Source: Anabaena sphaerica FACHB-251
GTDB lineage: Bacteria; Cyanobacteriota; Cyanobacteriia; Cyanobacteriales; Nostocaceae
Direction: 5' to 3'
NCBI RefSeq assembly: GCF_014696825.1
Contig: NZ_JACJQU010000007.1
Location: 186,001-250,000 of the forward strand
Length of the DNA: 64,000 nt
This document shows, piece after piece, positions 19,801-31,342 of this stretch (the stretch's first letter is position 1; every line of letters starts with the position of its first letter). Under the pieces are notes generated by a model that worked only from the letters and a program-made list of their open reading frames with translations, ran no database searches and had not been told where the DNA came from. Position numbers and translations under genes: made by a program.

Positions 19801-21009
19801 ATGACCAACTCAGAACTCATAGAATCTCATAACTTACTGAATGAGTTTAAAACCTGTACTCAGTTTCAATACAATGGAAAATTAAATATTAAAAGTTCCA
19901 AAGGCCGTCAATGGGCTTTTTACTATCGCCTCGGACGGATAGTTTGGGCTACAGGTGGAACTCATCCCTTCCGACGCTGGCGTAGACAAATGGCTCAATA
20001 TTGCCCCGATATCGACCTAGAGAAGATTCGCTGTCGAAGTGAGGATTTTGCCATCGATTACTGGGATTATAATATCTTGGATATCTTATACAAAAGACAG
20101 AAAATCCAACGAGAACAAATTCAAGCTATTGTCGAAAACACAATTGCAGAACTATTTTTTGATTTAGCGCAGGAAGTTGATTTTGCTTCTGTAAGTTGTA
20201 ATCTAAGTCAGGAAGTGATATTAGATATGCCCATGAGCTTCACAAGTGCAGATATGTCAATCAAACATATGCAAGACTCATGGGCGATTTGGTCACAAGT
20301 CGGTTTGGCGAATGTTTCTCCTAACTCATCACCAGTCCTACGGAGACCAGAACAACTCCAACAAATGGTTAGTGCATCTGTATACAAAAACTTTGTCAAT
20401 TTAATTAATGGCAAATACACTCTGCGAGAACTCGCTGTAAAAATGAAACAGGATGTGATGCCTGTTTCTCGTTCCTTACTTCCCTATATCCTCAAAGGAA
20501 TCATTGAGTTAGTAGAATTACCTGACTTACCTCTACAAGTTACTGATGGAGACAATTCCAACTCCAGACAAACCAGAAATCGGATTCATCGCATTGCACC
20601 ACTGATAGCTTGTGTTGATGATAGTCCTCTGGTGTGTAAAACGCTAGAGGATATTATTACCTCTAATGGACTGAGATTTACCAAAGTTCAAGATGCTATA
20701 CAAGCTTTACCTGTTCTGATTCAAGACAAACCAGATTTAATTTTCTTGGATTTGATTATGCCTGTAGCCAGTGGTTATGAAATTTGCACTCAATTACGGC
20801 GCATTCCTGCTTTTGCTAATACACCAGTAATTATCTTAACTGGCAATGATGGTCTTTTGGATCGAGTGCGCGCCAAGGTAGTGGGTTCGACAGATTTTAT
20901 CTCTAAACCAATAGTGGCTGATCGAGTCATGGGTGTAATACGTAAATATTTACCTGTACAGGCTAACTCAACTGTTAGAAATACGGCTAATTTAGAAGTT
21001 CCTAATTAG
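19801..21009 (+). CDS. pixG: PixG/PatA-like response regulator (PATAN + receiver)
   Basis: 402 residues. An N-terminal PATAN (DUF4388-type) domain with FQYNGKLNIKSSKGRQWAFY and YRLGRIVWATGGTHPFRRWR covers about residues 1-130. A helical middle follows, then a C-terminal CheY-like receiver from about 275 with acidic pocket ACVDDS, phospho-acceptor Asp in FLDLIMP (about 322), Thr in ILTGND and Lys in FISKP. First gene of a pixGHIJL-type phototaxis operon (ptxA position in Nostoc punctiforme). PATAN regulators act in phototaxis and pilus control through the motor ATPases. Start at ATG 19801 with AAGGAA eight bases upstream. Two PATAN paralogues lie at 48469 and 49746. Confidence 0.85.
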   Translation: MTNSELIESHNLLNEFKTCTQFQYNGKLNIKSSKGRQWAFYYRLGRIVWATGGTHPFRRWRRQMAQYCPDIDLEKIRCRSEDFAIDYWDYNILDILYKRQKIQREQIQAIVENTIAELFFDLAQEVDFASVSCNLSQEVILDMPMSFTSADMSIKHMQDSWAIWSQVGLANVSPNSSPVLRRPEQLQQMVSASVYKNFVNLINGKYTLRELAVKMKQDVMPVSRSLLPYILKGIIELVELPDLPLQVTDGDNSNSRQTRNRIHRIAPLIACVDDSPLVCKTLEDIITSNGLRFTKVQDAIQALPVLIQDKPDLIFLDLIMPVASGYEICTQLRRIPAFANTPVIILTGNDGLLDRVRAKVVGSTDFISKPIVADRVMGVIRKYLPVQANSTVRNTANLEVPN

Positions 21010-21301: not shown

Positions 21302-21667
21302 ATGAGTACTGTTTTAGTAGTTGAAGATGGTTTGACTGATATGGAAATTATCAGCCGTTACTTGCGACAGGCAGGCTATTCTGTGATTTCTGCCACCAGC
21401 AGTGAAGAGGCACAACAAAAAATAGATGCGAATAAACCTGATGTTATATTGCTAGATGTAATTTTACCGGGTAAAAGCGGTTTTGAAATTTGTCGAGAAC
21501 TACAAAATAACCCTAATACTAGCCAAATACCTGTGGTTTTCTGCTCTACTAAAAATAGTGAAGTAGATAAGATTTGGGGTAATATGTTGGGCGCTAAAGC
21601 TTACCTATCAAAACCAGTAGATAAGGAAGAATTAGAAAAGACTTTGAAAACATTGATCAACAAGTAA
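21302..21667 (+). CDS. pixH: CheY-like response regulator PixH
   Basis: 121 residues, a single receiver domain: acidic pair in VVEDGLTD, phospho-acceptor Asp in ILLDVILPGKSG (about residue 52), Thr/Ser in VFCSTKNS and Lys in AYLSKPVD. No output domain, so it works as a CheY in type IV pilus phototaxis signalling. The stop codon is unusual: its TA is the target duplication of a MITE (21667-21779) and its last A is the first base of the element. Joining the flanks gives AAG-TAG, so the insertion changed TAG to TAA and left the protein intact. Confidence 0.88.
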   Translation: MSTVLVVEDGLTDMEIISRYLRQAGYSVISATSSEEAQQKIDANKPDVILLDVILPGKSGFEICRELQNNPNTSQIPVVFCSTKNSEVDKIWGNMLGAKAYLSKPVDKEELEKTLKTLINK

Positions 21668-21878: not shown

Positions 21879-22358
21879 TTGACTTTGGAAACCAAACAGA
21901 AATTTTTAAGTTTTAATTTGGGAGAGAGAGATCAAGCAGTAATTTCGTTACAGCATATCACCGAGGTATTACGTATATCCTTAAGTGAAATTTGCGTAGT
22001 TCCACAGATGCCAAACTGCGTATTAGGTATTTATAGTTGGCGTGGCGAAATGCTGTGGTTGGTTGATTTAGAAGAAATGTTAGGTTATCCACCTCTTTTG
22101 CAAGGTTCAAATTTACTCACAAAAATGATGGCAATTGTGCTAGAAAACGAGGGTAAATATTTGGGGCTGATGGTGCGCCAATTGACCGATATTGAGTGGT
22201 TGGATACGCAGCAAATGAAGATTCCCTCTCCTGACCTATTTTATCCAGCAATGTCACCTTTTCTGCACGGATACATTACTAACGGTTCAGAGCAGATGAT
22301 TTTCAATTTAGACGCTCTGGCAATTCTCCAATCACCAATGTGGGGTAGTCATAACTAA
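21879..22358 (+). CDS. pixI: CheW-like adaptor PixI
   Basis: 159 residues with one CheW domain: LSFNLGERDQAVISLQHITE near the start, VPQMPNCVLGIYSWRGEMLW (about 41-60) typical of CheW, and a C-terminal GYITNGSEQMIFNLDALAIL. It couples the photoreceptor-MCP to the CheA kinase. Start is a TTG at 21879 right behind AAAGGAAA. A second TTG two codons later is equally spaced for that site. It is separated from pixH by the MITE. Confidence 0.85.
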   Translation: MTLETKQKFLSFNLGERDQAVISLQHITEVLRISLSEICVVPQMPNCVLGIYSWRGEMLWLVDLEEMLGYPPLLQGSNLLTKMMAIVLENEGKYLGLMVRQLTDIEWLDTQQMKIPSPDLFYPAMSPFLHGYITNGSEQMIFNLDALAILQSPMWGSHN

Positions 22359-22476: not shown

Positions 22477-25400
22477 ATGACAACTTTATATCAAAGTAAT
22501 GAAGACCGAGGAAATATCTTTGCTGAAGTGGAAAAATCAGACAAAGAAAATGGCAGCACCTTAGAAAAATTTGCCCGCAATGATGTATCTACATCTAAGG
22601 CTATTTCTCAGGAATTTAAAGTCTGGCGGCAACGCTTTCAATACATAACAACGCAGATGGGTCAAGCCCCGGATCTGGATTCTTTACTAAAGATAACTGT
22701 AGCGCAAGTTAGGGATAAAATTGGTGGCGATCGCGCATTAATTTATCAATTTACTAACTCTGAAGCTGGTACAGTTTTAGCAGAATCAAGAACTACAGGT
22801 TGGACACCATCTTTAGGTGAGAATCTGCCCGCTATTTTGTTTGGATTATATACCAATCAAGATTATATTGAAGCCGTAGCAATTGACGATATTAATCAGA
22901 TTCAAGTAACTCCCTATCAGAAACAACTACTGGATAAATTTCAAGTTACAGCTAGTTTAAGCCTGCCGATTCTGATAGATAGTAAAGTATGGGGTTTATT
23001 AGTAATCCATAGTTGTGGTTCAGAACGTCAATGGCAAGAGGCAGAAATTACTCTACTCTCGCAAATAACTACAGAAATTACCTACAGATTGCAGAGTTTT
23101 AAATTACAAAAAGAACTGCAACAGTCAGCATTGGCCAAGCAATCAGTAGCTAAAGTCATCAGCAAAATTTTACAACAGCCAGATGTAGATAAAATCTTTC
23201 AAACTACGACTCAAGAAGTCCGTCAATTACTCAAATGCGATCGCGTTGGTGTTTATCGTTTCAACCCTGATTGGAGTGGGATATTTGTTTCCGAATCAGT
23301 GGGTAACAATTGGACGAAAATCGTCACCCCTGACTATAAAATGGTTTGGGAAGATACCCACCTACAAGAAACCAAAGGTGGAAGATATGCCAAAGGGGAA
23401 ACCTTTGTAGTTAATGACATTTATAAAACAGGTCATGCTCAATGTCACATTGAGATATTAGAGCAGTTTGACACCAAAGCTTATATCATTGCTCCCATCT
23501 TCTCAGGTGAAAAATTGTGGGGTTTACTAGCAGCTTATCAAAATACCGGGGCGCGGGAATGGCAAGACTGGGAAGTGAGCTTTTTAACACAGATAGGCTT
23601 GCAATTTGGTGTGGCTATTTCCCAGGGAGAATATTTGGAACAAGTGCAGAAACAAAGTGAGCAACTAGCCCAGATTAATAAACAAGAAAAATTTCTAGGC
23701 AAGATTGTTAACCGCATTCGACAAGCTTCCAACTTAGACGGCATCTTCAAAACTACAGTACAAGAAGTTCGTCAAGCATTAAAGTGCGATCGCGTCGGTG
23801 TTTATCAATTCCAACCAGACTGGAGTGGTCAATTTATCGCTGAGTCAGTGAGTAGTGGCTGGATAAAAATAGTTACGCCTGACTTTAAAATGGTCTGGGA
23901 AGATACCCACCTGCAAGAAACTCAAGGTGGTAGATATGCCGCAGGGGAAAGTTTTGCAGTCGATGACATTTATCAAGTTGGTCATGCTCAATGCCACATT
24001 GAGATATTAGAGCAAATTGAAGCCAAAGCTTACATGGTTGCTCCCATCTTCTTCGGGGAAAAACTCTGGGGTTTGTTGGCAACTTATCAGAACTCTAGCA
24101 CCCGCCAATGGCAACCTTGGGAACTCAGCTTTTTACAACAAATCGGCTTACAATTTAGCCTCGCTAAAACACAGATCGATTATGTAGAACAAGTAGAATC
24201 TAAATCTCAAGAACTAATTCAGATTGCTGAACAAGAGAAAACCCTCAACAAAATTGTCAGCCGCATTCGTCAATCCAGAGAAGTAGACGAGATATTCACA
24301 ACTACTACCCACGAAGTTCGGCAGGCATTAAAATGCGATCGCGTCGGTGTTTATCAATTTAAACCTGATTGGGGTGGTGAATTTGTAGCTGAATCAGTCG
24401 GTACTGGTTGGACAAAATTAGTCGGTCCAAATATCAAAACCGTCTTAGATGATACCTACTTACAAGATACGAAAGGTGGCAGATATGCCAAAGGCGAAAC
24501 CTTTGTTGTTAATGACACCTATAAAATAGGTCTAGCCCCTTGCCACATTGCAATTTTGGAGCAGTTTGAAGCCAAGTCTTATGTAATTGTGCCGATATTT
24601 TTTGGCGAAAAACTCTGGGGCTTGTTGGCAGCTTATCAAAATACTGGATCTCGTGAATGGAAAGAGTCAGAAGTCAACTTTTTAAAACAGATTGGCTTGC
24701 AATTTAGTCTGGCTAAATCACAGTTAGATTATATAGAACAAGTACAATTGCAATCTCAAGAAATCACTCAGATTGCTGAACAAGAGAAAACCGTCAACAA
24801 AATAGTCAACCGCATCCGCCAATCCTTCGATTTAGAAGACATCTTCAAAGCAGCTACTCAAGAAGTTCGCCAAGCTCTAAAATGCGATCGCGTCGGTGTT
24901 TATCAATTTAAACCTGATTGGAGTGGACAATTTTTAGCAGAATCAGTAGGTAGTGGCTGGATGAAAGTTGCCACAGCCGACTTTAAAATGGTTTGGGAAG
25001 ATAGCCACTTGCAAGAAACCCAAGGCGGTAGATATGCCAAAGGCGAATCCTTGGCAGTCAATGACATCTATCAAGTCGGTCACTCTCAATGTCACATAGA
25101 GATTTTAGAGCAGATTGAAGCCAAAGCTTACATAATAGTTCCCATCTTTTATGGAGAAAAATTGTGGGGATTACTTGCAGCTTATCAAAACAGTGGAACT
25201 CGTGAATGGCAACCCAGAGAAATCAACTTTTTAGAGCAGATTGGCTTGCAATTTAGTTTAGCGAAATCTCAGATTGATTATATAGACCAAGTAAAATCGC
25301 AATCTCTGGAAATCAGTCAGATTGCTGAACAAGAGAAAACAGTCAACAAAATAGTCAACCGTATCCGCCAATCGTTCGATTTAGAAGACATCTTCAAAGC

Positions 25401-27438
25401 AGCTACTCAGGAAGTCCGTCAGGCATTGCGGTGCGATCGCGTTGGTATTTATCAATTTCATCCTAATTGGAGTGGACAATTTATAGCTGAATCAGTATCA
25501 AGTGGCTGGATAAAAGTTGCTACCCCGGACTTTAAAATGGTGTGGGAAGATAGCCACTTGCAAGAAACTCAAGGCGGTAGATATGCCAAAGGTGAAAACT
25601 TCGTTGTTAACGACATTTATAAAGTTGGGCATTCTCAATGTCATGTTGAGATTTTAGAGCAAATTGAAGCCAAAGCTTACATGATAGTTCCCATCTTTTA
25701 TGGAGAAAAATTGTGGGGATTACTCGCAGCTTATCAAAACAGTGGAACTCGTGAATGGCTAACCAGAGAAGTCAACTTCTTAGAACAAATTGGTTTGCAA
25801 ATTAGTCTTGCAAAATCTCAGATTGATTATATAGAACAAGTAAAGTCTAAATCTGAAAAACTAGCTCAGATAGCTGAACAAGAAAAAGCCATCACCAAGA
25901 TAGTCAACCGCATCCGCCAATCTTTAGAAGTAGAAGAAATCTTCAAAACTACCACTCAAGAAGTCAGACAACTACTAAAATGCGATCGCTCCGTCGTTTA
26001 TCAATTTACATCCGATTGGGGAGGCGAATTTGTAGCCGAATCAGTATCTAGTGGTTGGGTGAAACTAGTCGGTCCTGGTATTAGAACCACCTTAAATGAC
26101 CCTTGTCTACAAGACAATGAAGGTGGGCGCTATAAAAAAGGTGACACCTTAGTAGTCAACGACATTTATAAAGCTACCCTTGATCCCTGCTACATAGAAA
26201 TCATTGAAAAATATGAAGCTAGAGGATACATCATTACTCCCATCTTATTTGGAGATAAACTCTGGGGTTTACTGGCAGCTTATCAAAACTCCGCACCTCG
26301 TCATTGGGAAGAATCAGAAATTAACTTGTTGTCACGTATCGGCGACCAATTAGGACTAGCCTTACAACAAACAGAATACTTAAAACAGCTACAAACTCAA
26401 TCTTCCAAACTCTCAGAAGCAGCCCAAAGGGAAAAAGCCGCCAAAGAATTACTCCAACAACGGTCTATTCAACTGCTTAGAGCTATTAGTCCAGCACTCA
26501 GCGGTGATTTAACAGTTCGCGCCCCCATTACAGAAGATGAGTTAGGTACAATTGCCGATGCTTACAATGGCACACTGCAAGCACTACAACAAATCGTCAT
26601 TCAGGTACAAACCGCTTCCCAAGAAGTTGCCCAAACCTCTATCCACAGTAATTCTTCACTAGTAGGATTGACTGATTTAGCAAAAGAACAGTCCGACGAA
26701 ATCACCCAAGCCTTACGCGATATTCAACAGATGGTAGATTCTACCCAAGCGGTAGTAACCAGCGCCCAACTAGTACAAATAGCTGTACAACAGGCCAACA
26801 AAACTGTAGATTCTGGTGATACAGCCATGAACCAAACAGTAAATGCTATTCAGGCCATTCGTGAAACCGTCGCCCAAACTAGCAAAAAGATTAAACGCCT
26901 GAGTGAATCATCACAAAAAATCTCCAAAGTAGTAAATTTGATCAGCAACTTTGCCTCACAAACCAACGTACTGGCTTTAAATGCTGCTATCGAAGCTACT
27001 CGTGCCGGTGAATATGGTAAAGGCTTTGCAGTGGTAGCGGATGAAGTTCGTTCTTTGTCTCGTCAGTCCGCAGCAGCAACCATCGAAATTGAAAAATTAG
27101 TCCAAGAAATTCAAACTGAGACTGGGGAAGTTGCTGTAGCAATGGAAACGGGTATCCAGCAAGTAGTAGAAGGGACAAATTTAGTTAGTGAAACTCGCCA
27201 AAACTTGAACGCCATTGTTTCCGCCACTGCGGAAATTAGTCAACTCATTGAGCGCATTACTGAAGCCACTCAAAAACAAATGGATCAATCGGTAACAGTA
27301 ACAGCATCAATGAATGATGTGGCTGCAATTGCCAATAAGACCTTTGGTGAATCTCAAGAAATTGCTACCGTGTTCCAAAACTTATCAGGAATGGCTCAAG
27401 CTTTATTAACAACGGCTGGTAAGTTCAAAGTCAAGTAA
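22477..27438 (+). CDS. pixJ: PixJ/PtxD-like phototaxis receptor with seven GAF domains and MCP output
   Basis: 1653 residues: seven GAF domains spaced about 183 residues apart (from about residue 50 to 1300), a HAMP-like segment (about 1315-1375) and an MCP signalling domain (about 1390-1650) with tip NVLALNAAIEATRAGE. GAF2-GAF6 keep the bilin-binding Cys-His (for example HAQCHIEILEQ), with cysteines near 324, 504, 688, 871 and 1054, so they look like cyanobacteriochromes. GAF7 has DPCY there plus an upstream DPCL, a possible second cysteine. GAF1 lacks the Cys. No transmembrane helix is seen, so the receptor is probably soluble and held in an array. It would sense light direction or colour for pilus-driven hormogonium phototaxis. 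The start has a strong GAGGGGA site. Confidence 0.92.
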   Translation: MTTLYQSNEDRGNIFAEVEKSDKENGSTLEKFARNDVSTSKAISQEFKVWRQRFQYITTQMGQAPDLDSLLKITVAQVRDKIGGDRALIYQFTNSEAGTVLAESRTTGWTPSLGENLPAILFGLYTNQDYIEAVAIDDINQIQVTPYQKQLLDKFQVTASLSLPILIDSKVWGLLVIHSCGSERQWQEAEITLLSQITTEITYRLQSFKLQKELQQSALAKQSVAKVISKILQQPDVDKIFQTTTQEVRQLLKCDRVGVYRFNPDWSGIFVSESVGNNWTKIVTPDYKMVWEDTHLQETKGGRYAKGETFVVNDIYKTGHAQCHIEILEQFDTKAYIIAPIFSGEKLWGLLAAYQNTGAREWQDWEVSFLTQIGLQFGVAISQGEYLEQVQKQSEQLAQINKQEKFLGKIVNRIRQASNLDGIFKTTVQEVRQALKCDRVGVYQFQPDWSGQFIAESVSSGWIKIVTPDFKMVWEDTHLQETQGGRYAAGESFAVDDIYQVGHAQCHIEILEQIEAKAYMVAPIFFGEKLWGLLATYQNSSTRQWQPWELSFLQQIGLQFSLAKTQIDYVEQVESKSQELIQIAEQEKTLNKIVSRIRQSREVDEIFTTTTHEVRQALKCDRVGVYQFKPDWGGEFVAESVGTGWTKLVGPNIKTVLDDTYLQDTKGGRYAKGETFVVNDTYKIGLAPCHIAILEQFEAKSYVIVPIFFGEKLWGLLAAYQNTGSREWKESEVNFLKQIGLQFSLAKSQLDYIEQVQLQSQEITQIAEQEKTVNKIVNRIRQSFDLEDIFKAATQEVRQALKCDRVGVYQFKPDWSGQFLAESVGSGWMKVATADFKMVWEDSHLQETQGGRYAKGESLAVNDIYQVGHSQCHIEILEQIEAKAYIIVPIFYGEKLWGLLAAYQNSGTREWQPREINFLEQIGLQFSLAKSQIDYIDQVKSQSLEISQIAEQEKTVNKIVNRIRQSFDLEDIFKAATQEVRQALRCDRVGIYQFHPNWSGQFIAESVSSGWIKVATPDFKMVWEDSHLQETQGGRYAKGENFVVNDIYKVGHSQCHVEILEQIEAKAYMIVPIFYGEKLWGLLAAYQNSGTREWLTREVNFLEQIGLQISLAKSQIDYIEQVKSKSEKLAQIAEQEKAITKIVNRIRQSLEVEEIFKTTTQEVRQLLKCDRSVVYQFTSDWGGEFVAESVSSGWVKLVGPGIRTTLNDPCLQDNEGGRYKKGDTLVVNDIYKATLDPCYIEIIEKYEARGYIITPILFGDKLWGLLAAYQNSAPRHWEESEINLLSRIGDQLGLALQQTEYLKQLQTQSSKLSEAAQREKAAKELLQQRSIQLLRAISPALSGDLTVRAPITEDELGTIADAYNGTLQALQQIVIQVQTASQEVAQTSIHSNSSLVGLTDLAKEQSDEITQALRDIQQMVDSTQAVVTSAQLVQIAVQQANKTVDSGDTAMNQTVNAIQAIRETVAQTSKKIKRLSESSQKISKVVNLISNFASQTNVLALNAAIEATRAGEYGKGFAVVADEVRSLSRQSAAATIEIEKLVQEIQTETGEVAVAMETGIQQVVEGTNLVSETRQNLNAIVSATAEISQLIERITEATQKQMDQSVTVTASMNDVAAIANKTFGESQEIATVFQNLSGMAQALLTTAGKFKVK

Positions 27439-27640: not shown

Positions 27641-30600
27641 ATGATTACAGACACTGAAATTCGCGAACAAGGCTATGCCTACTTTTTGGCGGAAGCCCCA
27701 GATTTATTACAAGTAATTGAACAAGATTTATTTAGCCTATCAGAAACCTATAGCATCAATAAAGTTCATAACTTAATGCGGGCAACTCATACAATTAAAG
27801 GGGGAGCCGCTACTGTTGGGCTAGATACAATCAATATGATAGCCCATTCTTTAGAAGACATATTTAAGGCTTTATATAGTCCTGACGTAGTTATAGATAC
27901 TGAATTGCAAACCCTCCTACTAGAAGCTTACGAATGTCTTCAGTTGGCTGTCACCGCAGAATTGACATCAAATAATATTAATAGTGAAGAACTTCTGCAA
28001 AGAGCAACTTCTGTATTTGCAGAACTACAAACAAAATTAGGTGATGCTTTTGGGGCTGAGTCTCATATTCCTACTTCTGAAGAATTAGGATTTGATATTG
28101 TGCAGTCTATTTTTGAAGTAGGAGTTGCCCAACGTATAGAAAGTATTGCTGAAGCTATTAATAATTCCCTAACCAATCAGGAATTAGGCGAGTTTTTAAA
28201 CTCTCACGTTGAAGTATTTCTAGGGTTAGCTGAATCTTTAAATCTACCTGGTTTGAAAGAACTATCTCAGACCATTATGGCTGTATTAGTAGCTCATCCC
28301 CAGAAAGTACATCAAATAGCAGAAATTGCTTTAGCTGATTTACAAGCAGCACAAAAAGCAGTTTTAGCAGGCGATCGCACAGTTGGAGGTTCCCCTTCTG
28401 CTGCTTTGCAAGCACTAACAACAGTGGCAAAAGATGACTCACCTGTTAAACCCACTACTAGCTCTTTGGCTAAAGTCCCCAAAAATGAGTCAGGAATCAT
28501 CCATAAGAACAACTCTTTTGCCAACAAATTTTTCAGCCTCACCACCGAATTTTACCAATTTTTAACCACATCTGGTCACAGAAACGACGAGCCTTTAAAA
28601 CCAGCAAATGCTAAATTTTACTTAAAAGTTATTCGCTATATTTTCGGCTGGTTTAATCACGAAAGAGAAATACCAGAATCAGATCTGAGTTTAGATTTAT
28701 TAATTCCTAGAGATCATCCAGATTATTCAGAAAATTATGTGGAAATTTGGCTCAATCAATTTCAGGATTTTATTAAAGATGAACAAGATCAGCAGAACCT
28801 TTGCCTTTATCGTCGGGGTGTTATTTCCATAATTATCCTAGCTGTTGCTGAATTTGAGTATTCAGTTAAAAAAAATGATAATGCCATATCAATTATTAGC
28901 ACACTCCGAAAAGAAATCCGCAAATTAGGAAAAGAATATAAAAATTATCCTCCTGTGACAGAGGAAGAAAAAAAATGGCTAGACAGTCCCAAGTTACAAG
29001 AATTATTAGTTATTAAAGAAGTATCCACCCCTGTAGTTACTGCCACTGACTATAATCTAGTGGAGGAAATATGGGGAGGAGATACTATCTCAGGAACAGT
29101 CGGGCAATCTCTGATACCACATACCGCCGAAAATGTTAAAGATGATAATTATTTAGAAAGTGTCACATCATCAGTTATCAGTGATCAAGTATTTACAAAT
29201 ACTCCTGATTCAAACTACGAAATTATTACTGATGATTCCGAAACCAAAAATAGAGAATTAGAAGATAAATCTCAACCATCCCCAAATAAGAATACCCGAC
29301 AATCTTCATTTGTGCGTGTAGATGTAGAGGGATTAGAACGCCTCAATTACTTGGCTGGAGAATTACTTATTTACCAAAAACGACGATCTTTATATGATGA
29401 TCAGATTATAGAATTAATTGAGCAGTTAAGTCAGAAATTAAGCCAGCATCAAGCAGTTTTACAAAAATTACGTGATTTGCCTTTGCAGGGAAACAATTTT
29501 TCCATAGCAACCAGCCAAAAAGTTTCGGCTGTACAATTTGATGCTTTAGAAATGGATGTCTATACAGAATTTAATCTGACATTACATGAAGCACTAGAGG
29601 AAACACTGCAACTACAAGAAACATCAGAGTCTCTTGACTTGCTGATTAAACAATCTGGTCAAATTAGTGAGAAAAAATATAATTTAACTCTTGGCATTAT
29701 AGATAACCTTGCCGAAGCAAGAATGCTGCCTTTGGGAACCATCTTAAATCGCTTTCCGCAAATGGTCAGCAATCTGGCAAATGTTTATGCAAAAAATGTA
29801 GAATTAAAACTCACTGGTACACAAGTTCCCATAGATAAAGCTATTGCCGAAAAACTCTATGATCCCTTAGTGCAATTAGTTCGTAATGCTTTTATTCATG
29901 GTATTGAATCTCCAGAAATGCGCCATGAACTTGGCAAAAATCCACAAGGTTTAATAGAAATACGCGCCTATCATCAAGGAAATCAAACTATTATTGAAGT
30001 TCGAGATAATGGTCAAGGTTTAAATCTAGAAAGTATTCGCAGGAGAGCTATTGACCTGAATCTTATACCAGATGATAATAACCCTCAAGGCTATTATCAC
30101 CAAACTGAATCAGAACTGATCGATCTAATGTTTTCACCTGGATTTTCCACCGCTGGCAAGGTGAGTGAAATTTCTGGACGTGGTATGGGATTAGATATTG
30201 TCCGTACTCAGTTGCAATCTCTTAATGGCATGATTTCAGTACAATCATTGCCCAATGAAGGAACAACATTCATACTCAAAATCCCCTTTTCTATGACCAC
30301 AGATAAACTAATGCTAGTCCAGTCCGGGGGTATTGTTTATGCCTTACTGCTAGATAGTATCGAGAAAATACTAATTCCCTCGGAGCAGCAAATCAAAAAA
30401 TTTGAAGGCAAACAAATTTTATATTGGCATTCGGGTGAGGAAGAACTTGTTGTCAACCTCATCAAACTTGAAAGTTTAGTGTATTACAATGGTTCAGTTG
30501 TTGGTAGCAATTATTTAAATAATATACCCAAAAGTGCTGATACAGAAATAATGAAAAATCCTGTGCTTCTACTCAAACGCAATCAGGGGATTTTGGGTTT

Positions 30601-31342
30601 AGAAGTTGACCAAATTATCGGTGAACAAGAACTAGTAATTAGACCTTTAGGTAGTACCATCACTCCACCAAAATATATTTATGGTTGTAGTAGTTTAGCT
30701 AATGGCAACCTGATTTTAGTGCTTGATGGCACTATGTTGATAGATTCTCAACAGATGCAGGCCACACTTGATGTTAGAACTCTACCAACAACTTCTGGGT
30801 TCCACAAACAAGCTTTGCCAATGTCGGAGGATAATGTATCTATATCATCTACACCGCTACTGACTGCATCTTCTACCTCCAATACTATCGAATCTCCACC
30901 AAATTCTTATGCAGCGATAACCCCAAAATTACCAAAAGTAGTTTTGATCATAGATGATGCTATTAGTGTCCGACAAACTATTGTTATGACTTTGCAAAAG
31001 TATGGCTATCAAGTATTTTCAGCCCAAAATGGAGTAGAAGCGATTGAGCAGTTAGAATTACATCCAGAAATTGAAGTGGTTATTTCTGATTTAGAAATGC
31101 CTCGGATGAATGGATTTGAATTATTAAGTCATATCCGTCAACATTCAGCCTGGGCTAAAAAATCGGTGGTGATTCTCACTTCTCGTAGTTCTGAAAAACA
31201 TCGTCAGTTGGCTCAAGAATTAGGTGCAACGGCTTATTTAACTAAGCCTTATTTGGAGCATGAGCTTCTTTCTACTGTTGAGAGTTTAGCGAACCGCGAT
31301 AGTGGTGGTTTGAATCAGGGGTTAATTTCAGCAGGTAAATAG
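27641..31342 (+). CDS. pixL: Hybrid CheA histidine kinase PixL
   Basis: 1233 residues: N-terminal Hpt domain with phospho-His50 in RATHTIKGGAA, a second helical segment (about 135-250), a long middle region without recognised motifs, a dimerisation helix at VEGLERLNYLAGELLIYQKR (about 563-582), a HATPase with N box VRNAFIHGIE (about 747), G1 VRDNGQGL and G2 ISGRGMGLDIV, a CheW-like regulatory domain and a C-terminal receiver (from about 1100) with Asp near 1150 in ISDLEMPRMNG. It takes the signal from the PixJ receptor and passes phosphate to PixH/PixG. It is the last gene of the operon and is followed by a terminator. Confidence 0.92.
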   Translation: MITDTEIREQGYAYFLAEAPDLLQVIEQDLFSLSETYSINKVHNLMRATHTIKGGAATVGLDTINMIAHSLEDIFKALYSPDVVIDTELQTLLLEAYECLQLAVTAELTSNNINSEELLQRATSVFAELQTKLGDAFGAESHIPTSEELGFDIVQSIFEVGVAQRIESIAEAINNSLTNQELGEFLNSHVEVFLGLAESLNLPGLKELSQTIMAVLVAHPQKVHQIAEIALADLQAAQKAVLAGDRTVGGSPSAALQALTTVAKDDSPVKPTTSSLAKVPKNESGIIHKNNSFANKFFSLTTEFYQFLTTSGHRNDEPLKPANAKFYLKVIRYIFGWFNHEREIPESDLSLDLLIPRDHPDYSENYVEIWLNQFQDFIKDEQDQQNLCLYRRGVISIIILAVAEFEYSVKKNDNAISIISTLRKEIRKLGKEYKNYPPVTEEEKKWLDSPKLQELLVIKEVSTPVVTATDYNLVEEIWGGDTISGTVGQSLIPHTAENVKDDNYLESVTSSVISDQVFTNTPDSNYEIITDDSETKNRELEDKSQPSPNKNTRQSSFVRVDVEGLERLNYLAGELLIYQKRRSLYDDQIIELIEQLSQKLSQHQAVLQKLRDLPLQGNNFSIATSQKVSAVQFDALEMDVYTEFNLTLHEALEETLQLQETSESLDLLIKQSGQISEKKYNLTLGIIDNLAEARMLPLGTILNRFPQMVSNLANVYAKNVELKLTGTQVPIDKAIAEKLYDPLVQLVRNAFIHGIESPEMRHELGKNPQGLIEIRAYHQGNQTIIEVRDNGQGLNLESIRRRAIDLNLIPDDNNPQGYYHQTESELIDLMFSPGFSTAGKVSEISGRGMGLDIVRTQLQSLNGMISVQSLPNEGTTFILKIPFSMTTDKLMLVQSGGIVYALLLDSIEKILIPSEQQIKKFEGKQILYWHSGEEELVVNLIKLESLVYYNGSVVGSNYLNNIPKSADTEIMKNPVLLLKRNQGILGLEVDQIIGEQELVIRPLGSTITPPKYIYGCSSLANGNLILVLDGTMLIDSQQMQATLDVRTLPTTSGFHKQALPMSEDNVSISSTPLLTASSTSNTIESPPNSYAAITPKLPKVVLIIDDAISVRQTIVMTLQKYGYQVFSAQNGVEAIEQLELHPEIEVVISDLEMPRMNGFELLSHIRQHSAWAKKSVVILTSRSSEKHRQLAQELGATAYLTKPYLEHELLSTVESLANRDSGGLNQGLISAGK

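Follow-up and report, generated by a model that had tools for sequence, protein, structure and literature searches.

Judged by its sequence and operon context, the gene described here is an expanded PixJ-type phototaxis receptor, and the last of its seven GAF domains (GAF7), adjoining the signalling output, is a candidate dual-cysteine photosensor. The pairing of motifs that marks GAF7 is, at the level of sequence, a real observation and is conserved across a group of related species; with the extra cysteine, what was a red/green sensor has probably become a sensor of blue light. More specifically, we favour, with moderate confidence, a reversible thioether between Cys1210 and C10 of the bilin that would give GAF7 a violet/blue-absorbing 15Z dark state within a PixJ-type receptor of several spectral classes. 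The window referred to throughout is the whole stretch of 64,000 nucleotides from Anabaena sphaerica FACHB-251 that was analysed.

Pfam recognised seven GAF stretches and a single MCP signalling domain in the receptor ORF, and this fusion of a GAF array to an MCP domain is a feature of PixJ or tax1-type phototaxis receptors. GAF2 to GAF7 form six DNA-level repeats at a spacing of exactly 549 nt, with pairwise protein identities of 51–87%, compared with only 23–27% between GAF1 and the other six. The gene is single-copy in the host genome (6.19 Mb, 44 contigs), where the other 54 matches do not exceed 60% identity. No transmembrane segment is indicated in the receptor, since its highest 19-residue hydropathy mean is only 1.58 and falls inside GAF1. 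Pfam at E 0.001 returned no HAMP match in the receptor, although visual inspection alone suggested a HAMP-like stretch ahead of the MCP domain.

The neighbouring genes supply the CheY, CheW, CheA and PATAN-type regulator set of a phototaxis operon, with the N-terminal part of the regulator scoring as DUF4388-like only and no PATAN model reported for it by Pfam (Table 1). This gene set agrees with the published descriptions of tax1/pix in Synechocystis and ptx in Nostoc punctiforme (PMC5812497). At 38 of 44 related loci the receptor gene is likewise flanked, in its own orientation, by CheW upstream and CheA downstream; at the remaining six, CheW and/or CheA had no match at E 1e-15, and some of these stretches end early. 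Because the patterns of the search that found the 44 loci included NDPCLQDN, carriers of the GAF7 motif DPCL may be over-sampled among them.

Table 1. Receptor gene, its domains and motifs, and neighbouring operon genes in the window
Feature	Position	Strand	Basis
Response regulator, receiver and DUF4388-like N-terminal part (PixG-like position)	19801-21009	+	ORF list, Pfam
CheY-like response regulator (PixH-like position)	21302-21667	+	ORF list, Pfam
CheW (PixI-like position)	21879-22358	+	ORF list, Pfam
PixJ-type receptor gene, seven GAF domains and MCP signalling domain, 1653 aa	22477-27438	+	ORF list, Pfam
GAF1, without bilin cysteine, site PYQ	22630-23127	+	alignment, cysteine list
GAF2, WEDTHL, Cys323-His, helix Phe present	23140-23655	+	alignment
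GAF3, WEDTHL, Cys506-His, Ile at helix-Phe position	23689-24204	+	alignment
GAF4, LDDTYL, Cys689-His, WXDXXL Trp lost, no second Cys	24238-24753	+	alignment
GAF5, WEDSHL, Cys872-His, Ile at helix-Phe position	24787-25302	+	alignment
GAF6, WEDSHL, Cys1055-His, 87% identical to GAF5	25336-25851	+	alignment
GAF7, output-proximal, dual-cysteine candidate	25885-26400	+	alignment, careful tree
DPCL, residues 1208-1211, second cysteine Cys1210 (codon 26104-26106)	26098-26109	+	alignment
Canonical bilin Cys1238, then Tyr1239	26188-26193	+	alignment
MCP signalling domain	26785-27330	+	Pfam
CheA hybrid kinase: Hpt, HATPase, CheW, receiver (PixL-like position)	27641-31342	+	ORF list, Pfam

The preliminary description of this DNA had assigned a Cys-His bilin site to GAF2–GAF6, none to GAF1, and a second cysteine in DPCL with His replaced by Tyr at the main site to GAF7. 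All three assignments agree with our alignments (C323, C506, C689, C872 and C1055; PYQ in GAF1, also from the cysteine list; C1210 within LNDPCL and C1238-Y). Its THL or TYL triplet for GAF2–GAF6 is right for GAF2 and GAF3 (THL) and GAF4 (TYL), and has to be amended to SHL in GAF5 and GAF6. By signature GAF2 is canonical red/green and would act as a standard red/green switch. The helix Phe, which we take to be the residue after EILEQ in NpR6012g4, is kept in GAF2 and GAF4 but replaced by Ile in GAF3, GAF5 and GAF6, and by Tyr in GAF7. This residue has been linked to the blue-shifted (green) photoproduct of red/green domains (PMC5240096), and GAF3, GAF5 and GAF6, which lack it, may have altered photoproducts. 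The primers for NpF2164g5 spell EI-L/Y-EKIQAKAY, with Ile at the same place as in these three domains (PMC7504144).

The Trp of the WXDXXL motif, kept in GAF2, GAF3, GAF5 and GAF6, is lost in GAF4 (LDDTYL) and GAF7 (LNDPCL). By analogy with two CXDXXL domains described in PMC11284453, the dark state of GAF4 may be yellow-to-orange. In the careful tree described below, the GAF4 clade and the third GAFs of four-GAF arrays (L013, L022, L028) seem to have lost the Trp in separate events, barring domain exchange. A cysteine-less GAF1, finally, is ordinary: PYQ occupies the bilin site in 61 of 102 first-detected GAFs of the fetched loci, from locus sets that overlap and include some stretches beginning mid-array, and of the two GAFs of Synechocystis PixJ1 the second alone binds bilin (PMC5812497).

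The array has a varied history among related loci, 32 of 44 of which have four detected GAFs. Among DPCL carriers, the window and Trichormus sp. NMC-1 have seven and four others (L009–L012) six. GAF5 and GAF6 fall within one seven-row clade (support 100/96 in the careful tree). The position-3 GAF of L009–L012 and L053 has a V-EDT.. start and Cys-Tyr and is without a counterpart in the window, whose third position, unlike theirs, is the red/green-type GAF3. The divergent position-3 domain of those loci reads VEDT for the WXDXXL start and GARF for GGRY, with Cys-Tyr and no second cysteine.

The array's sequences point to more than a single spectral class, in support of the earlier suggestion that it may combine several colour classes, and several colours in one receptor have already been reported for PtxD (PMC5812497). 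The KLVGP segment offered alongside it, said to set GAF4 and GAF7 apart from domains with VTPD or ATPD, is indeed shared by the two, with the correction that GAF5 reads ATAD. Alignment with AnPixJg2 undoes KLVGP as a distinguishing mark, and it was ruled out as a colour-class marker: it says nothing on colour, because red/green AnPixJg2 and NpR6012g4 both have it.

Cys1210 aligns on the His of WEDTHL in NpR6012g4 and on the Cys of a DXCF-type domain (DHCF in L063), so that the closeness to DXCF noticed at the outset is exact in position; it does not extend to overall sequence, as GAF7 is only 40–42% identical to four DXCF domains and sits among red/green (XRG) domains. The cysteine is followed by Leu1211, not by the Phe of DXCF domains, and a motif of DPCL in place of DXCF counts against our preferred reading. 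By sequence and tree the nearest relatives of GAF7 are red/green domains, which makes it XRG by descent, yet it is not a typical red/green domain because LNDPCL has lost the Trp of WXDXXL.

The best PDB match of GAF7 was 6BHN (E 4e-76), presumably NpR6012g4, followed by AnPixJg2 (two entries) and JSC1_58120g3. Over the tree alignment, identity was 65% to NpR6012g4, 53% to AnPixJg2 and 40–42% to the four DXCF domains; over a structural alignment it was 31% to TePixJ (4GLQ). The careful tree comprised 77 GAF domains with motif columns removed, its rows hand-picked as the bilin-Cys GAFs of 18 arrays, two references and four DXCF rows. These four, from two other genomes plus the host genome, were the only DXCF rows in the trees, and Slr1393g3 and JSC1_58120g3, long branches in a first tree of 79 rows, were left out of the quick and careful trees. 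Ten DPCL domains formed one clade (support 95/99), and the DXCF rows split off at 100/100 with GAF7 not among them. An imported DXCF domain was thereby ruled out as the origin of GAF7 (40–42% against 65% identity, and the careful tree), within the limit of four DXCF rows. Since the DPCL domains form a single supported clade and GAF7 is nearer to NpR6012g4 than to the DXCF domains, it is probable that a domain of the red/green lineage adjoining the output regained its second cysteine a single time and then kept it.

All ten members of the clade have DPCL, Cys-Tyr and no WXDXXL Trp, although the columns of these motifs were absent from the tree, and from this sample the co-occurrence of DPCL and Cys-Tyr exceeds chance. 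The test of linked change between second Cys and Tyr drew on a sample with few independent pairs. The basal fork between the DPCL clade, NpR6012g4-type last GAFs and the rest had no supported order in the careful tree; position in the array and identity are what point to descent of GAF7 from an NpR6012g4-type last GAF. On the quick tree, with four outgroup rows, clade tests did not reject 'DPCL plus DXCF' (p-AU 0.891), and 'all last GAFs' was not rejected either (p-AU 0.906); the quick tree is not optimal, because both constrained trees scored higher.

This basal uncertainty bears on whether GAF7 instead retains an ancestral DXCF cysteine of the lineage that gave rise to red/green domains, a question independent of the photocycle. 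Such retention would fit the emergence of the XRG lineage from DXCF lineages through Cys loss (PMC11284453) as well as the unrejected placing of DPCL and DXCF on one side of a branch. We nevertheless regard it as improbable: with four outgroup rows the p-AU result merely lets the DPCL clade branch first, GAF7 is far closer to NpR6012g4 than to the DXCF domains, and retention would require several losses because Slr1393g3 and JSC1_58120g3, of the red/green lineage, are also without a second cysteine in alignments.

Further evidence for a single regain followed by conservation comes from the spread of the motif among relatives, surveyed in three overlapping sets (the 44 loci, a family search and an order search) whose counts are not additive. 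The last-detected GAF of the window and 44 loci (n=45) has DPCL with Cys-Tyr in six cases, W with Cys-His in 33 and other combinations in six. The six carriers are the window, Sphaerospermopsis aphanizomenoides, a Nostocales MAG, Anabaena lutea, Anabaena catenula and Trichormus sp. NMC-1. The family search covered 192 genomes, 99 of which had a match at E 1e-75 or better; among the best 30 matches, the only ones scored for motifs, 18 had DPCL with Cys-Tyr (the window included) and 12 had W with Cys-His, the 18 carriers spanning six genus codes in one family. DPCLQ is invariant in 18 distinct sequences, which were picked by DPCL and CY, so that the invariance is largely circular. The order search matched 15 of 291 genomes at E 1e-84 or better, every one in the same family as the window, with nine DPCL and Cys-Tyr (the window included) and six W and Cys-His. 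In L112–L114 the motif is W with Cys-His. It reads FDDPCL or FNDPCL in the g28 genomes, and L053 (FDDPCLQAIKGGDY) retains DPCL and Cys-Tyr although the GGRY that follows has diverged.

We tentatively extend these observations to a scenario that may well prove incorrect in part or whole, in which the output-proximal PixJ GAF of one clade within a Nostocales family switched from red/green to blue via a few linked changes (loss of Trp, Pro-Cys for Thr-His, Tyr for His) that were kept since, as the GAFs upstream of it duplicated and diverged, some losing the Trp or the helix Phe. If so, the array would be a four-class receptor with its final colour input rewired within a known lineage, and the four-GAF relatives would be natural before-states. 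Across a whole clade, a light sensor would then seem to have changed colour because the domain closest to the signalling output regained a single cysteine. Comparison with close relatives, which keep the red/green state, could show what residues the change requires besides the cysteine, and whether the colour to which movement responds is set by the output-proximal domain.

In the mechanism proposed for GAF7, Cys1238 would carry the bilin at ring A and Cys1210 would add reversibly to C10, producing the violet/blue-absorbing 15Z dark state. Light would then break the Cys1210–C10 bond, and the resulting 15E state would absorb at longer wavelengths: green to teal where phycocyanobilin (PCB) is converted to phycoviolobilin (PVB), and otherwise orange to red. 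The combined signal of the array would set CheA activity and thereby type IV pilus phototaxis, by analogy with PixJ and PtxD. That the violet/blue state is most likely the dark one follows from other XRG domains in which the DXCF cysteine was regained; these, which GAF7 resembles in joining red/green lineage to a Cys at the DXCF position, are reported to combine PCB-to-PVB isomerisation with reversible C10 ligation, a comparison made through the description in PMC11284453. At the three isomerisation sites named there, GAF7 carries Leu at the Trp site, Pro at the Thr site and, at the third, the Ala that red/green domains also have. These residues fit neither class and give no basis for predicting PVB isomerisation, or the photoproduct colour, from the sequence. 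Domains of TePixJ type likewise place the second Cys at the DXCF position in a similar fold, and GAF7 is predicted to share their chemistry. In Synechocystis PixJ1 the bilin-binding GAF, both second and last, is a blue/green sensor (PMC5812497). Against the proposed mechanism, converting the Tyr of DTYL to Cys in insert-Cys domains gave inefficient photocycles, though the Cys could disrupt conjugation (PMC5240096).

A second cysteine can also act in the opposite direction, as in AM1_1186g2, an XRG domain of the same lineage whose second Cys bonds in the photoproduct instead (red dark state at 641 nm, blue photoproduct at 416 nm; PMC6628166). GAF7 might likewise have a Cys-free red (or orange) dark state, with Cys1210 adding to C10 after light to give a blue photoproduct; membership of the XRG group and the Pro preceding the second Cys (Pro2509-Cys2510 in AM1_1186g2) speak for this. 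We consider it unlikely, if worth serious attention, as the second Cys of AM1_1186g2 lies in helix alpha3, termed a unique position, while Cys1210 is at the DXCF position, where regained cysteines in XRG domains are said to accompany PCB isomerisation and C10 ligation (PMC11284453), and as GAF7 is without the Trp that helps hold a red-absorbing dark state.

That Trp loss could itself shift the colour of a single-Cys GAF7 whose Cys1210 never bonds the bilin, or Cys1210 could serve only to promote isomerisation to phycoviolobilin. Precedent is offered by CXDXXL domains of the red/green lineage, which have a Cys near the bilin: in the one tested with iodoacetamide it does not ligate C10, two show green/teal photoconversion on phycoviolobilin, and in two the dark state is yellow-to-orange (PMC11284453). 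Their Cys, however, sits at the Trp position rather than the DXCF position, and DPCL persists in the clade beside a drifted flank, as in L053; an unbonded Cys1210 thus appears rather unlikely.

The substitution of Tyr for the His beside the bilin Cys raises the further prospect that GAF7 does not bind bilin at all and serves just as a connector between array and MCP part. We judge this highly improbable, since the canonical Cys is kept in 10 of 10 DPCL-clade members and Cys-Tyr occurs in a bilin-binding protein. In alignment, miRFP670nano3 has Cys-Tyr at the place of Cys1238-Tyr1239, and its forerunner miRFP670nano binds biliverdin (PMC6336887); by this analogy Cys-Tyr need not block bilin binding. 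The modelled fold is moreover closest to bilin-bound structures: neighbours of the AlphaFold model (pLDDT 83.8) include AnPixJg2 (Z 23.4, rmsd 2.1, 175 aligned) and the blue form of TePixJ (Z 21.8, rmsd 2.3, 146 aligned). GAF7 is thus predicted to fold like solved cyanobacteriochromes, a shared fold that by itself shows no function.

Preference for a dual-cysteine GAF7 places the receptor within a kind that is already known, with seven-GAF multicolour PtxD, regained DXCF cysteines and the red/blue AM1_1186g2 as precedents, and no priority is claimed for the GAF7 clade. XRG domains that regained a DXCF cysteine are reportedly the subject of work by Rockwell, Martin and Lagarias in 2017, under the title 'There and back again'. 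The literature searched, drawn on in excerpt and stopping short of that work, yielded no DPCL domain and no clade-wide regain at an output-proximal PixJ GAF, and a search on Anacy_3174, a possible homologue, gave nothing. The receptor has in common with AnPixJ and the NpR6012-type PixJ of Nostoc (domains AnPixJg2, 3W2Z; NpR6012g4, 6BHN) the XRG GAFs before an MCP domain; NpR6012g4 is nearest to GAF7 in sequence, and the CheW-receptor-CheA order recurs in related loci. It differs in having seven GAFs, against four detected in 32 of 44 related loci, and, from these systems as compared by their PDB domains, in a last GAF with DPCL and Cys-Tyr and without Trp. PtxD (NpF2164) of Nostoc punctiforme, compared by description only, also has seven GAFs before its MCP domain; at least six bind bilin, two have a second Cys, six colours are covered in total, and the protein is needed for positive phototaxis of hormogonia (PMC5812497). 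PtxD g3 is of the insert-Cys kind (PMC5240096), unlike GAF7.

Cysteines at the DXCF position also occur elsewhere. The third of four GAFs in L038 (MAG: Nostoc sp. NMS7) reads WADTCI with Cys-His, keeping the Trp, and looks like a separate Cys gain in a red/green-type domain of a PixJ array. The sixth GAF of L060, in a large GAF array of a genome of the same order, reads IEDTCL with Cys-His and lies outside the DPCL clade.
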